From Bacteroidota bacterium (lineage in GTDB: Bacteria > Bacteroidota > Bacteroidia > Bacteroidales > PUMT01): DNA of 37,531 nucleotides. A model generated the notes under the pieces. That model saw only the letters and a program-made list of their open reading frames with translations. It did not search any database and had not been told where the DNA came from. Location of the stretch: the NCBI GenBank assembly GCA_003551495.1, contig PUMT01000166.1, positions 1-37,531 on the forward strand, in the 5' to 3' direction. Positions 2,518 to 8,688 of the stretch are shown one piece after another. Within the stretch, counting starts at the first letter, position 1; each line of letters starts with the position of its first letter. The position numbers and the translations under genes were made by a program.

Positions 2518-4143
2518 ATGCAAAAAAAATTAATTCGTGCTGCCTTCATCCTGATGGTGGCACTTTCCCCGTTTTTTAATCTTAACGGTCAGGAAGGCTA
2601 TACAAACCATGATGACCTTTCTGCCCGTCTGAATCAACTGGCAAGGGAATTTCCTGCAGTGGCAACCCTGGAATCGCTTGACAAAACGAACGGTGGAAAA
2701 GAGATATGGTTGCTGTCAATCGGAACAGGTGACCTGGAAAACCGTCCTGCCATCGCTGTAGCAGGTGGTGTTTCCGGTGAGTATCCGGTTGGAACGGAAC
2801 TTGCCCTTCTGTTTGCCGAAAAGATCCTCGAAAACTCGGGCGATGACCGTGTAAAGGAATTACTCTCAGAAACAACTTTTTATGTGTTTCCCGACATGAA
2901 TCCGGATGCACGGGCACAGTTTTTTTCCAGGCTTCGCTATGAGCGTACCGGAAATGCTTATCCGCCTCATTCTGTTGAAAGGAATGCCCGCCTGGCAGAA
3001 GATCCCTACAGAGACCTGAACGGCGATAATATGATCACCATGATGAGGACCGAAGATCCTTCAGGTGAATGGATAACCCACCCCAAAGATCCCAGGGTTA
3101 TGGTCAGGGCATCCTTTGAAAAGGGAGAAACCGGCAAGTACACTCTAAAGCCCGAGGGGATTGACAGTGACATGTATGACCTTTTCAATATGCACAGGGA
3201 AGGGATGGTTGATTTCAACAAAAACTTCACTTTTCAATACCCTGCATTCACCCCCAGGGCAGGTGAGCATGCAGTATCGGAAATTGAGTCCAGGGCAATT
3301 GCAGATTTCCTGTTTGAATCAAAAAATGTATTTGCCGTTGTGGGATTCGGTCCTGCTGATAACCTAACCGCCCCCCTTACCTATAATGAAAGGGCTGCAT
3401 CAGGCAGGATGGTAACCGGTATCCTTCAGGAAGATGCAAAGGTAAACAGTATGGTTTCCAATAAGTATAGTGGACTGGTCAGCACAGAAGGCGCAACAGG
3501 GAAAAGTGGTACGGATGGGGATTTCTTCCAGTGGGCTTACTTTCATTACGGAAGATTTAGTTTCAGCACTCCCGGCTGGTGGGTTCCTGCATCTGAAGGC
3601 GGCAGTTCCAATCCGGAGATCAATTTTCTTGAATGGGCTGAAAGTGAGGGATTGGAGAATGTATTTGTGCCGTGGCAGGAAGTTGAACATCCGGATTACC
3701 CCGGCCAAAAGACCGAGGTTGGGGGTATAGCACCGTTTGTGATGAATAATCCCCCATATGAAATTGTTGAAAGGTCTGCAGGCGAGCATTTCAATTTTTT
3801 GCTGGAGCTTGCAGAAATGAGGCCGGTTACAGATATTGTGAATGTACGCACGGAAAGGCTGGGAAGAGACCTGCACCGGGTAACGGTCGATATTTTCAAT
3901 GAAGGTGTTTTCCCTACTGTTACCGAACTGGGAGAACGGGTAAGATGGGTGCAGAAAACTGTTGTGAATTTTGATCCGGATGAAGGACAGGAGCTGGTCA
4001 GCGGCAAAAGGGTTGAGGTACTTGACCGTATAGAAGGAAAAGGCAGGTATGAATGCAGCTGGCTTGTAAGAGGCAGGGGAGAGATAAAGATAAGGGCTGG
4101 TGCGGAAAGTACCGGTTTCAAAGAAATAGAAATAAACCTTTAA
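2518..4143 (+). CDS. Secreted M14 carboxypeptidase-like protein, predicted catalytically inactive
   Basis: ORF listed from 2455, but the signal peptide MQKKLIRAAFILMVALSPFFNLNGQ begins at 2518. Collinear with the next gene throughout (LEIWLLS, NPDAR, DPRVMVRA, FVPWQEVEHPD), but M14 motifs are substituted. Confidence 0.85.
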   Translation: MQKKLIRAAFILMVALSPFFNLNGQEGYTNHDDLSARLNQLAREFPAVATLESLDKTNGGKEIWLLSIGTGDLENRPAIAVAGGVSGEYPVGTELALLFAEKILENSGDDRVKELLSETTFYVFPDMNPDARAQFFSRLRYERTGNAYPPHSVERNARLAEDPYRDLNGDNMITMMRTEDPSGEWITHPKDPRVMVRASFEKGETGKYTLKPEGIDSDMYDLFNMHREGMVDFNKNFTFQYPAFTPRAGEHAVSEIESRAIADFLFESKNVFAVVGFGPADNLTAPLTYNERAASGRMVTGILQEDAKVNSMVSNKYSGLVSTEGATGKSGTDGDFFQWAYFHYGRFSFSTPGWWVPASEGGSSNPEINFLEWAESEGLENVFVPWQEVEHPDYPGQKTEVGGIAPFVMNNPPYEIVERSAGEHFNFLLELAEMRPVTDIVNVRTERLGRDLHRVTVDIFNEGVFPTVTELGERVRWVQKTVVNFDPDEGQELVSGKRVEVLDRIEGKGRYECSWLVRGRGEIKIRAGAESTGFKEIEINL

Positions 4144-4153
4144 ACAAGAAGCA

Positions 4154-5905
4154 ATGAAAATAAAAACAAATATTACCCGAATAAAGCTGCTGCTTTTTGT
4201 ATTCATATTGTTTTCAAACACAGTTTACAGTCAGACAGCAGACCAGATTTTCAAGGCAGCAGGAACACCGGCAACTCCCAAAGTGGAAATACACTGGAAC
4301 CGTTATTATGACTTTGACGGGGTTGCCGAAATATGCCGCAAGCTGGCAGATGCCCATCCTTCTCTGGCAACGCTTGAATCAATAGGCAGCTCCTATGAAG
4401 GCCGTGAAATATGGTTGCTTACCGTTACAAATTTAGAAAACAAGCCACACCGTGAAAAACCCGGATTCTGGATAGATGCCAATATTCATGCCAACGAGAT
4501 CCAGGGTACTGAAATAGCTCTCTATACTGCATGGTATCTTCTTGAGAACTATGGAAAAAATGATTTCATAACAAAACTAATGGATGAAAAGGTGTTTTAT
4601 ATAGCACCTACAATCAATCCTGACGGACGCGATAATTATATTTATGAACCAAACACCGGAAGTACCCCCAGGAGCGGCACTATACCCCTGGATGACAGCG
4701 GAGACGGTGTTGCAGCCAACGACCCTTTCGATGACCTCAACAATGACGGTCATATTACCCAGATGAGAAGGAGGAATCCCCTCGGCCAGTTCAGGGAATG
4801 CCCTGAAGACCCAAGGAGAATGGTGCGTGTGGGTCCGGGAGAGCAGGGAGAGTTTGAGCTGCTCGGACTTGAAGGAATTGACAGGAACCATGACGGCCGT
4901 GTTAATTCAGATGGAATAGGAAGATATGATCCCAATCGTGACTGGGGGTGGAACTGGCAGCCTGACCATGTACAAAGGGGGGCATATCATTATCCATTTG
5001 CATTGCCCGAAAACCGTGCCGTAAGGGATTTTGTTGTGGCACATCCAAATATTGCCGGGGCGCAGACATACCACAATATGGGAGGTATGATCCTGAGAGG
5101 ACCCGGAACAAGGGAGGATGAACAGTATTATACTTTTGCCGACAGGAATGTATATGATGCGCTGGGTGAACTGGGTGACAAACTTTTGCCTGGATACAGG
5201 TACCTGGTACTTTATCAGGACCTATATTCGGTTTATGGAGGCCAGATAGACTGGTTCCATTTCGGCAGGGGTATTTACACATTCACAAATGAACTTTTCA
5301 CAAGGTACCTCTATTTTTATGAACAGTATGAAGACAGGGAGGAAGCACAGAAGGCCCCCTACCAGTTTGACCGATACCTGCTTTTTGAAGATGCTTTTGT
5401 GCCCTGGGAAGAGTACGATCATCCGCAGTTCGGGAAGATTGAAATTGGAGGGTTCAAGAAGAATTTCGGCAGGCTTCATCCCGGCTTTTTACTTGAAACG
5501 GATGCCCACAGGAATATGGCATTCACCCTTTTTCATGCTTATCATACACCTCAGCTTGAGATACACGATGTTCAGGTGAAAGATCTGGGCAGGGGACAAA
5601 AGGAGATAACCGCGGTAATAGCTAACGGCAGAATAATACCTACACATTCGGGAATTGACCTGAGATACAATATTGAACGCCCCAACTATATTTCGCTTGA
5701 AGGCGGTGATGTACTGGCGGGTATGAGGGTACTCAATCCGGATCTCAATGTTGTGGAAGAGCAAAAAAGAAATCCTGAAATTATAGAGGTGGATAACATT
5801 CCCGGTATGGGACATGTAACGGTAAGGTGGATAGTTGACGGAGGCAGAAACTATACAATAAAGGTTGACAGTGCAAAAGGCGGAGTGGTAAGGAAGAGTT
5901 TCTGA
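4154..5905 (+). CDS. Secreted M14 family zinc carboxypeptidase
   Basis: Signal peptide MKIKTNITRIKLLLFVFILFSNTVYSQ; zinc motif ANIHANEIQGTE; NPDGRDNY; DPNRDW; third zinc ligand TYHNMGG; catalytic Glu FTNELF. Confidence 0.93.
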   Translation: MKIKTNITRIKLLLFVFILFSNTVYSQTADQIFKAAGTPATPKVEIHWNRYYDFDGVAEICRKLADAHPSLATLESIGSSYEGREIWLLTVTNLENKPHREKPGFWIDANIHANEIQGTEIALYTAWYLLENYGKNDFITKLMDEKVFYIAPTINPDGRDNYIYEPNTGSTPRSGTIPLDDSGDGVAANDPFDDLNNDGHITQMRRRNPLGQFRECPEDPRRMVRVGPGEQGEFELLGLEGIDRNHDGRVNSDGIGRYDPNRDWGWNWQPDHVQRGAYHYPFALPENRAVRDFVVAHPNIAGAQTYHNMGGMILRGPGTREDEQYYTFADRNVYDALGELGDKLLPGYRYLVLYQDLYSVYGGQIDWFHFGRGIYTFTNELFTRYLYFYEQYEDREEAQKAPYQFDRYLLFEDAFVPWEEYDHPQFGKIEIGGFKKNFGRLHPGFLLETDAHRNMAFTLFHAYHTPQLEIHDVQVKDLGRGQKEITAVIANGRIIPTHSGIDLRYNIERPNYISLEGGDVLAGMRVLNPDLNVVEEQKRNPEIIEVDNIPGMGHVTVRWIVDGGRNYTIKVDSAKGGVVRKSF

Positions 5906-5931
5906 CCGGAAAGTGTATTTAATGATCTGAG

Positions 5932-5961
5932 CCGGGAATCTGCAGGATTCCCGGTTTTTTT
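5932..5961 (+). terminator. Rho-independent terminator after M14 gene pair
   Basis: Perfect 9-bp stem CCGGGAATC-tgcag-GATTCCCGG followed by 7 T. Confidence 0.9.
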
Positions 5962-6672: not shown

Positions 6673-8688
6673 TCATGCCGGGCTTTCCCGAAAATCTCCC
6701 CGGGCAATTTTTTCCAGTTCAGAGAGTTCGTCCCTGTAACGGGCTGCATCCTTGAAATTCAGTTCGGCTGCCGCCTCTTCCATATTTCTCCTTGTTTTTG
6801 CAATTACTTTCTTTAACTCGTCCATAGTCATGTACTTAATAACCGGGTCTGCTGCAATATTGGTGCGTATGGTTTCTTCCTCAACGGGACTTGTATAGAG
6901 GATCGACTTTCTGGAAGATCTGACGGGAGTGGGGGAGATGTTATGCTTTTTGTTATAGGCAAGTTGTTTTTCCCTGCGGCTGTGGGTGTCGTCAATAGCT
7001 TTTCTCATTGAACCGGTTACTGTATCAGCATACATAATGACCCTGCCGTTAATATGCCTGGCCGCCCTCCCGGATGTCTGTGTAAGCGATCTGGCAGACC
7101 TCAGGAAACCTTCCTTGTCCGCATCAAGAATTGCCACCAGTGATACTTCAGGAAGGTCAAGTCCTTCCCTTAGAAGGTTAACCCCTACAAGAACATCGAA
7201 AATACCGCTTCTCAACCCATCCATTATTTCTATCCTCTCAATTGTGTCTATATCCGAGTGGATGTAACGGCATTTTATATCCATCCTGTCAAGGTATTTT
7301 GAAAGCTCTTCAGCCATTCTTTTGGTTAATGTGGTAACCAGGACTCTTTCACCCCGGGATGTGCAATTATTGATTTCACCTATCAGGTCGTCAATCTGGT
7401 TTTTACTTGCTCTTACTTCAACGTACGGCTCCAGTAGTCCGGTAGGCCTTATGATCTGCTCTACCGTTTCACCGCCGCATTTTGCTTCTTCATATTCGGC
7501 AGGTGTTGCACTCATAAATATGGTCTGACCGGAAAGCCCTTCAAACTCCTCAAACCTGAGCGGTCTGTTATCTATAGCAGCGGGCAGCCTGAAACCGTAT
7601 TCCACAAGGGTTTTTTTCCTTGAATAATCGCCTCCGTACATAGCCCTTATCTGGGGTATTGTAACGTGACTTTCGTCTATTACCATAAGGTAATCATCGG
7701 GAAAGTAGTCCAGTAAGCAGAATGGGCGGGAACCAGGTATCCTTCCGTCAAAATAGCGTGAGTAATTCTCTATTCCGGAGCAATACCCAAGCTCGCGGAT
7801 CATTTCAAGGTCGTATTCAACTTTTTGCAGTAAACGGTTTGCCTCAAGCTCCCTTCCCGAATCCCTGAAGTACTGAACCTGTTTTACCAGGTCATCCTGA
7901 ATGCTTTTAATAGCATTTTGCATCCTCTCTTTGGTAGTAATGAAAATATTGGCAGGGTATATGGCCATTTCATCCGGATTACTGATGATTTCACCGGTTT
8001 CAGGATCGAAGGTTTCAATATCTTCAATTTCATCCCCCCAGAAAATTACCCTGCATGCAATATCGCCGTATGCAAGAAATATATCAACAGTGTCTCCCCT
8101 TACCCTGAAGTTTCCCCTCCTGAAATCCCCTTCACTTCTGGAATAAAGGCTTTCGACCAGCCTGTGCAGCAGCCTGTTCCGGCCAATTATCCCTCCTCTT
8201 TTGAGTGATATCATATTGCTGTGAAAATCTTCAGGATTACCAATTCCGTAAAGACATGAAACTGATGAAACCACAATCACATCCCGCCGCCCGGAAAGGA
8301 GTGAAGATGTAGCACTAAGCCTAAGCTTCTCAATTTCCTCATTTATGGAAAGGTCTTTTTCTATATAGGTATCGCTCGCGGGGAGATATGCTTCAGGCTG
8401 GTAATAATCATAATAGGAAACAAAATATTCAACCGCGTTGTCAGGGAAAAAGTGTTTGAATTCACTGTATAGTTGTGCCGCAAGAGTTTTGTTGTGACTA
8501 AGCACCAGTGTGGGGCGCTGAACCTTTTCTATTACATTTGCAATGGTAAATGTTTTTCCCGAGCCGGTTACACCCAGCAGGGTCTGGTATTGTTTCCCGG
8601 TGTGAATACCTTCAGCAAGCTTGCTTATCGCGCCGGGCTGGTCGCCTGTGGGAGTGTACCCCGTTACTATTTTGAAACTGTTTGCCAT
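6673..8688 (-). CDS. uvrB: UvrABC excinuclease subunit B
   Basis: GVTGSGKTFTIANVI Walker A; YYDYYQPEAYLP; GVNLLREGLDLPEVSLVAILDADKEGFLRS; C-terminal UVR motif. Confidence 0.98.
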   Translation of the reverse strand: MANSFKIVTGYTPTGDQPGAISKLAEGIHTGKQYQTLLGVTGSGKTFTIANVIEKVQRPTLVLSHNKTLAAQLYSEFKHFFPDNAVEYFVSYYDYYQPEAYLPASDTYIEKDLSINEEIEKLRLSATSSLLSGRRDVIVVSSVSCLYGIGNPEDFHSNMISLKRGGIIGRNRLLHRLVESLYSRSEGDFRRGNFRVRGDTVDIFLAYGDIACRVIFWGDEIEDIETFDPETGEIISNPDEMAIYPANIFITTKERMQNAIKSIQDDLVKQVQYFRDSGRELEANRLLQKVEYDLEMIRELGYCSGIENYSRYFDGRIPGSRPFCLLDYFPDDYLMVIDESHVTIPQIRAMYGGDYSRKKTLVEYGFRLPAAIDNRPLRFEEFEGLSGQTIFMSATPAEYEEAKCGGETVEQIIRPTGLLEPYVEVRASKNQIDDLIGEINNCTSRGERVLVTTLTKRMAEELSKYLDRMDIKCRYIHSDIDTIERIEIMDGLRSGIFDVLVGVNLLREGLDLPEVSLVAILDADKEGFLRSARSLTQTSGRAARHINGRVIMYADTVTGSMRKAIDDTHSRREKQLAYNKKHNISPTPVRSSRKSILYTSPVEEETIRTNIAADPVIKYMTMDELKKVIAKTRRNMEEAAAELNFKDAARYRDELSELEKIARGDFRESPA

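Follow-up and report, generated by a model that had tools for sequence, protein, structure and literature searches.

An Ancient Gene Pair in Bacteroidota Links an Active-Type M14 Carboxypeptidase to a Catalytically Dead Paralog

Introduction

Pseudopeptidases of the M14 family have been described in animals and fungi: AEBP1/ACLP, CPXM1, CPXM2, CPD domain III, and yeast Ecm14 (PMC11266112; for Ecm14, PMC7706225). AEBP1, CPXM1, CPXM2, and Ecm14 keep His69 and Glu72 and mostly fail at Arg145 or Glu270, and CPD-III keeps His69 (PMC11266112, Table 2). All of the M14 pseudopeptidases in that review are eukaryotic, and most of them have no known mechanism (PMC11266112). Active/inactive pairs have been described among the M16 peptidases: alpha/beta-MPP and, in bacteria, SPH2681/SPH2682, AlbF/AlbE, and TTHA1264/TTHA1265. 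Their subunits are homologous, one of them is without the metal motif, the bacterial genes sometimes adjoin, and the inactive half is required (PMC12731061). In the open-licence literature, we found no description of bacterial M14 genes that form a dead/live pair.

Here, we describe such a pair in a stretch of 37,531 nucleotides from a Bacteroidota bacterium (contig PUMT01000166.1), hereafter the window. The upstream gene encodes a catalytically dead protein (PS) and the downstream gene an active-type enzyme (AC). Residue numbering follows carboxypeptidase A, and equivalences were taken from sequence and profile alignments.

Like the eukaryotic M14 pseudopeptidases, PS has the M14 fold, appears to be exported, and carries substitutions of catalytic residues that are nevertheless conserved across species. 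However, the pattern is reversed in the main clade of PS, in which the zinc ligands and the general base are gone and Arg127, Asn144, and Arg(Lys)145 are kept; in addition, PMC11266112 describes no eukaryotic pseudopeptidase that partners an active paralog encoded in the same operon. The nearest functional analogue is provided by the M16 pairs, in which the metal motif is present in just one of the two homologous halves. These have an unrelated clam shell fold, and their complexes are proven, whereas a PS–AC complex is a prediction. The closest solved structures for both proteins are carboxypeptidase T (1obr, 3v38) and the pancreatic carboxypeptidases A/B (M14A). AC has the same catalytic set as these enzymes; unlike them, PS and AC have no prodomain and carry an extra C-terminal beta-rich domain, and PS is also catalytically dead.

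The Gene Pair and its Products

The locus consists of the following features:

2518..4143, + strand: PS (P0001), M14-fold pseudocarboxypeptidase of 541 aa, assigned from its PF00246 match, AlphaFold model, Foldseek matches, and the absence of the zinc ligands and Glu270
4154..5905, + strand: AC (P0002), M14 carboxypeptidase of 583 aa with an intact active site, assigned from PF00246, six key residues, and Foldseek
5929..5957, + strand: terminator-like hairpin right after AC, with a 13-pair stem and a T run, identified by its match to the consensus

Both proteins belong to M14 by homology and by fold. They match Pfam PF00246 (Peptidase_M14) above the cut-off (P0001, E 4e-20; P0002, E 1.2e-40), and NCBIfam holds no family for either. 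The two sequences are collinear and align end to end with 27–29% identity (E = 2e-41), and a profile comparison relates the two families with 100% probability. The AlphaFold model of PS, built on 44 PS sequences, has a pLDDT of 82.4 and a pTM of 0.84, with a confidence in loops 225–254 and 332–334 that is too low to judge pocket geometry; that of AC, built on 42 AC sequences, has a pLDDT of 79. For both models, the Foldseek search returned carboxypeptidases at a probability of 1.00, with carboxypeptidase T as the best match (PS, E 1.8e-13; AC, E 9.7e-17) and TM-scores normalized to the template of about 0.7.

Both proteins appear to be exported. The N-terminus of PS (MQKKLIRAAFILMVALSPFFNLNGQ) resembles a signal peptide, as does that of AC, and neither has a lipobox cysteine. 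Because only about 20 residues lie between the signal peptide and the catalytic domain of AC, there is no room in this protein for an M14 prodomain. The stop codon of PS is separated from the ATG of AC by 10 nt, and the hairpin is likely to mark the end of a two-gene PS–AC transcript. The pair is flanked on its 5′ side by a gene that we take to encode a primary-sigma-factor-like protein (1402–2262) and on its 3′ side, on the other strand, by what is presumably a uvrB-like gene (6673–8688), both named from their translations. No structured RNA was found near the two genes. The window genome (G000) contains about 10 M14 loci, among them two adjoining long M14 genes (C20, 16101–19263; L004 and L006) with an open frame of more than 870 aa and HxxE motifs in both.

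Active-Site Residues

In active M14 enzymes, Arg127, Asn144, and Arg145 hold the C-terminal carboxylate of the peptide and the oxyanion. In AC, the sites that correspond to the catalytic set are:

4487..4498, + strand: HANE, zinc ligands His69 and Glu72 (81/81 family members)
4934..4945, + strand: NRDW, Asn144 and Arg145 (81/81)
5069..5077, + strand: YHN, zinc ligand His196 (81/81)
5291..5293, + strand: E380, general base Glu270 (81/81)

The six residues His69, Glu72, Asn144, Arg145, His196, and Glu270 (H112, E115, N261, R262, H307, and E380 in AC) are thus found in all 81 members of the AC family. The equivalent of Tyr248 (Y358) is present in 79 of the 81, and that of Arg127 (R173) in all 42 AC sequences. 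With its HxxE + H zinc site and the full set of Arg127, Asn144, Arg145, Tyr248, and Glu270, AC is predicted to be an active-type M14 carboxypeptidase.

The corresponding sites in PS are:

2764..2784, + strand: GGVSGEY, the first zinc-binding motif in its dead form (AC has HxxE here), which reads GGVEGxH in most orthologs
2944..2946, + strand: R143, the Arg127 equivalent, kept in 44/44; aligns with the Arg of FWRKTR in human CPB and with AC R173
3217..3228, + strand: NKNF, in which Asn144 is kept (N234) and Arg145 is replaced by Lys (K235); orthologs have N in 81/82 and K or R in 78/82
3343..3360, + strand: GFGPAD, in which the third zinc ligand, His196, is replaced by Gly or Ser (S in 51 and G in 31 of 82 orthologs)

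At the positions of His69, Glu72, His196, Tyr248, and Glu270, PS has S86, Y89, G278, S330, and P352; both the HxxE + H zinc site and Glu270 are therefore missing. None of 82 PS orthologs has His69, His196, or Glu270, Glu72 alone occurs in five, and Tyr248 is replaced as well. Most orthologs have a Glu and a His at the old His69 and Glu72 positions, that is, a swapped pair. R143 was placed both by direct alignment to human CPB and by profile alignment of the PS and AC families, and the replacement of Arg145 by Lys is a conservative change. A zinc site shifted to another part of PS was sought and none was found: the sole HxxE of P0001 (H151–E154) was rejected as a candidate, since the ortholog alignment (44 rows) has H151 in a single row, that of P0001 itself. 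In the most divergent PS subclade, Asn144 and Arg145 are lost, and PS is still paired with AC.

An earlier note on this DNA had reported the collinearity of the two proteins, and had quoted their coordinates and motifs; these all proved correct. Its further statement that PS had lost all catalytic and zinc residues holds for Glu270, Tyr248, and the three zinc ligands, but not for Arg127 and Asn144, which are kept, nor for Arg145, which has become Lys.

Distribution and Linkage

Relatives of PS were sought in GTDB-type genomes with patterns taken from the window protein, which biases the scan toward closer relatives. It returned 148 PS relatives, the best 80 of which are loci with the same losses. 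These 80 belong to Bacteroidales MAGs (several from sediment), Cyclobacteriaceae, Flavobacteriaceae, Roseivirga, and one Balneolaceae MAG, and they span the orders Bacteroidales, Cytophagales, and Flavobacteriales in addition to the Balneolaceae MAG. At every locus with enough DNA to judge (79/79, the window and 78 others), PS lies directly upstream of AC on the same strand, and in most of the orthologous loci the gap does not exceed 15 nt. The same order was seen again in one set of 12 loci and in another of seven. The genes that flank the pair differ between lineages and are conserved only among close relatives.

Co-occurrence was assessed in a phylum sample of 248 genomes, one per species and MAGs included, in which strong matches were defined as more than 200 bits for PS and more than 500 bits for AC, cut-offs picked after a gap in the scores had been seen. 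Strong PS matches were present in 25 genomes and strong AC matches in 26; these are the same genomes except for G194, and the remainder had neither at that level. In G194, the only mismatch, the AC gene starts at contig base 26, so that an upstream PS would be invisible. Two homologous adjacent genes, one dead and one live, are thus conserved together.

Several loci depart from the standard layout. In G251, PS (L155, 6073–7713 of C46) is the only one without an adjoining AC; it sits well inside its contig, and AC is found on C57, so that both genes are kept on different contigs. In G175 (C74; L156, 6233–7866), the PS sequence is divided between two overlapping frames, next to two AC genes that are intact; AC may therefore manage without PS in this genome, provided that the split does not stem from a faulty assembly. 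Two AC genes per PS are also found in L051, L055, and L061. The genome G151 has, besides the standard pair, a second, divergent dead/live pair in the same order (C3; L157, 4944–8857), which suggests that such pairs occur as paralogs of one another. A search around the tandem M14 genes of G037 (see below) brought to light a deeper set of Bacteroidales pairs, with the dead gene upstream and the live one downstream. Finally, a related M14 family of about 530–660 aa (L163, 4754–6739; L165, 4295–6232; L187, 4239–5837) keeps HxxE in its two full-length rows and the Glu270 region in all three, with MDT in place of YHN.

Evolution and Selection

In a tree of 69 proteins, PS forms one clade (support 100/100) and AC another (98/96), with matching subclades. 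In an earlier tree of 32 loci, the correlation between PS and AC distances was 0.926, a value that was reached in none of 2000 permutations. Because PS forms a single clade whose subclades match those of AC, the zinc site and the base were lost a single time. This took place before the pair reached its present range in Bacteroidota and Balneolota, or else before later transfers in which both genes moved together.

PS diverges faster than AC, with a median distance ratio of 1.62. Between congeneric genomes, dN/dS is 0.08–0.11 for PS and about 0.03 for AC; these values are rough, with dS near or at saturation, and that of AC comes from one measurable pair, synonymous sites being saturated against the third species. 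Since the loss, PS has been kept by purifying selection. It is a conserved M14 pseudoenzyme, with catalytic residues lost and frame and fold conserved.

Two tandems of intact M14 genes, G037:C19 (L044, 2257–6154) and G397:C94 (L179, 3774–7666), may be related to the origin of the pair: their upstream copy groups weakly with PS (94/79) and their downstream copy with AC (99/92). However, AU tests rejected neither a clade of their own for both active copies (p 0.11) nor a grouping of PS and AC alone (p 0.16); because other placements are left possible, an active/active ancestor of the PS–AC pair is a lead only. A search of 297 genomes found no further active/active M14 pairs.

Possible Role of the Dead Paralog

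The reading that we prefer, with a probability of roughly 0.6, is that PS and AC constitute an ancient, exported enzyme–pseudoenzyme pair encoded in a two-gene operon, in which PS is a noncatalytic subunit or activator that binds AC. AC, to judge from its residues, would be a zinc M14 carboxypeptidase that trims the C-terminal residues of peptides outside the cytoplasm. PS, an ancient paralog of AC whose zinc site and general base disappeared in a single loss early in the history of the family, would act in the periplasm or extracellularly, where it would most likely bind AC and then stabilize it, activate it, or present peptide C-termini to it. Gene order, co-occurrence, the agreement of the trees, and the absence from the sample of any AC without PS argue for a functional unit. 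The model also draws on the contrast between the fixed key residues of AC and their uniform loss in PS, the low dN/dS of PS, the retention of both genes on separate contigs in G251, the second dead/live pair of G151, and the lack of space for a prodomain in AC. However, two independent proteins that are passed on as a single block could likewise show linkage and congruent trees, and the split PS of G175 beside two AC genes, as well as the three loci with two AC genes per PS, speak against the pair model.

The carboxylate contacts that are kept in the main clade may allow PS to hold peptide C-termini. This is not the whole story, because the most divergent subclade has lost Asn144 and Arg145, and a kept carboxylate clamp was for this reason rejected as the universal function of PS. 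A bolder version of the model is less likely than not. In it, PS and AC would form an M14 heterodimer that is obligate across the phylum; PS would grip peptide C-termini through Arg127/Asn144/Arg(Lys)145 and hand them to AC or gate it, and would have arisen once from an active/active tandem with active relatives in G037 and G397.

The same contacts, together with the position of the most conserved PS segment at the old active site, the apparent export of both proteins, and their unlinked persistence in G251, would also fit a free-standing exported protein that shares a pathway with AC without touching it and binds either peptide C-termini or some other ligand. Such a protein would be expected to occur at times without AC, or AC without it, but neither was seen in the sample, and the subclade devoid of Asn144 and Arg145 stays paired nonetheless; we therefore hold this alternative to be rather unlikely.

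The conserved segment itself raises the question of a new activity:

3517..3576, + strand: GDFFQWAYFHYGRFSFSTPG, the most conserved stretch of PS, situated where active enzymes have their Tyr248/Glu270 segment; Pro takes the place of Glu270

Across the family, it reads GDFFQWAYFHxGRxSFSTPG, 14 of the 27 positions of residues 330–356 are invariant in 44 sequences, and a version of it is present even in the most divergent subclade. Invariant residues are enriched in the old pocket as a whole (p 7e-6), an enrichment that is due to residues 330–356 alone (p = 0.25 without them). A rebuilt pocket could use D335, H343, R346, T351, or similar conserved residues, since these four are invariant in the 44 sequences and lie where active enzymes bear Tyr248 and Glu270, and the swapped Glu/His pair of many orthologs could contribute to it. 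However, the window PS has Ser and Tyr at those two positions, several invariant residues coincide with positions that are structural in AC (G362, W367, G373), and the model around residues 332–334 is too uncertain for its geometry to be read. A new enzymatic activity of PS is, in our view, quite improbable.

It is very improbable that PS is only a folding helper or inhibitor of AC, comparable to a prodomain and outside the working enzyme. AC is indeed without the prodomain of classical procarboxypeptidases, and PS is translated first, in cis, in nearly all loci; for such a role, though, the kept carboxylate contacts would be needless, and the present results fit a lasting subunit equally well. 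Decay of a duplicate, to which the faster evolution of PS and the broken frame in G175 might point, is refuted as a general explanation by conserved orthologs with invariant motifs, a dN/dS of about 0.1, one ancient clade, and a frame that, among about 100 loci, is broken in a single one.

The preferred enzyme–pseudoenzyme reading agrees in its outline with the earlier note, which had taken PS for a maintained pseudoenzyme rather than a decaying gene: orthologs with the same losses and intact frames recur in the whole family, dN/dS is low, and the PS clade is a single old one. Co-transcription, which it had thought probable from the 10-nt spacing, gains support from the short gaps elsewhere and the strong terminator-like stem after AC. 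The partner role, which it had called plausible, has become much more likely given the near-perfect co-occurrence and the matching trees.

Significance

Pfam annotation would name both genes zinc carboxypeptidases, and the dead members in Bacteroidota may thus pass for enzymes in gene counts. If the G037 and G397 tandems are indeed active/active relatives of the pair, they could serve to trace how the dead copy came about. As a bacterial pair with an adjoining live partner and culturable hosts (Algoriphagus, Belliella, Psychroflexus, Salegentibacter), PS–AC would make the role of a dead carboxypeptidase directly testable.
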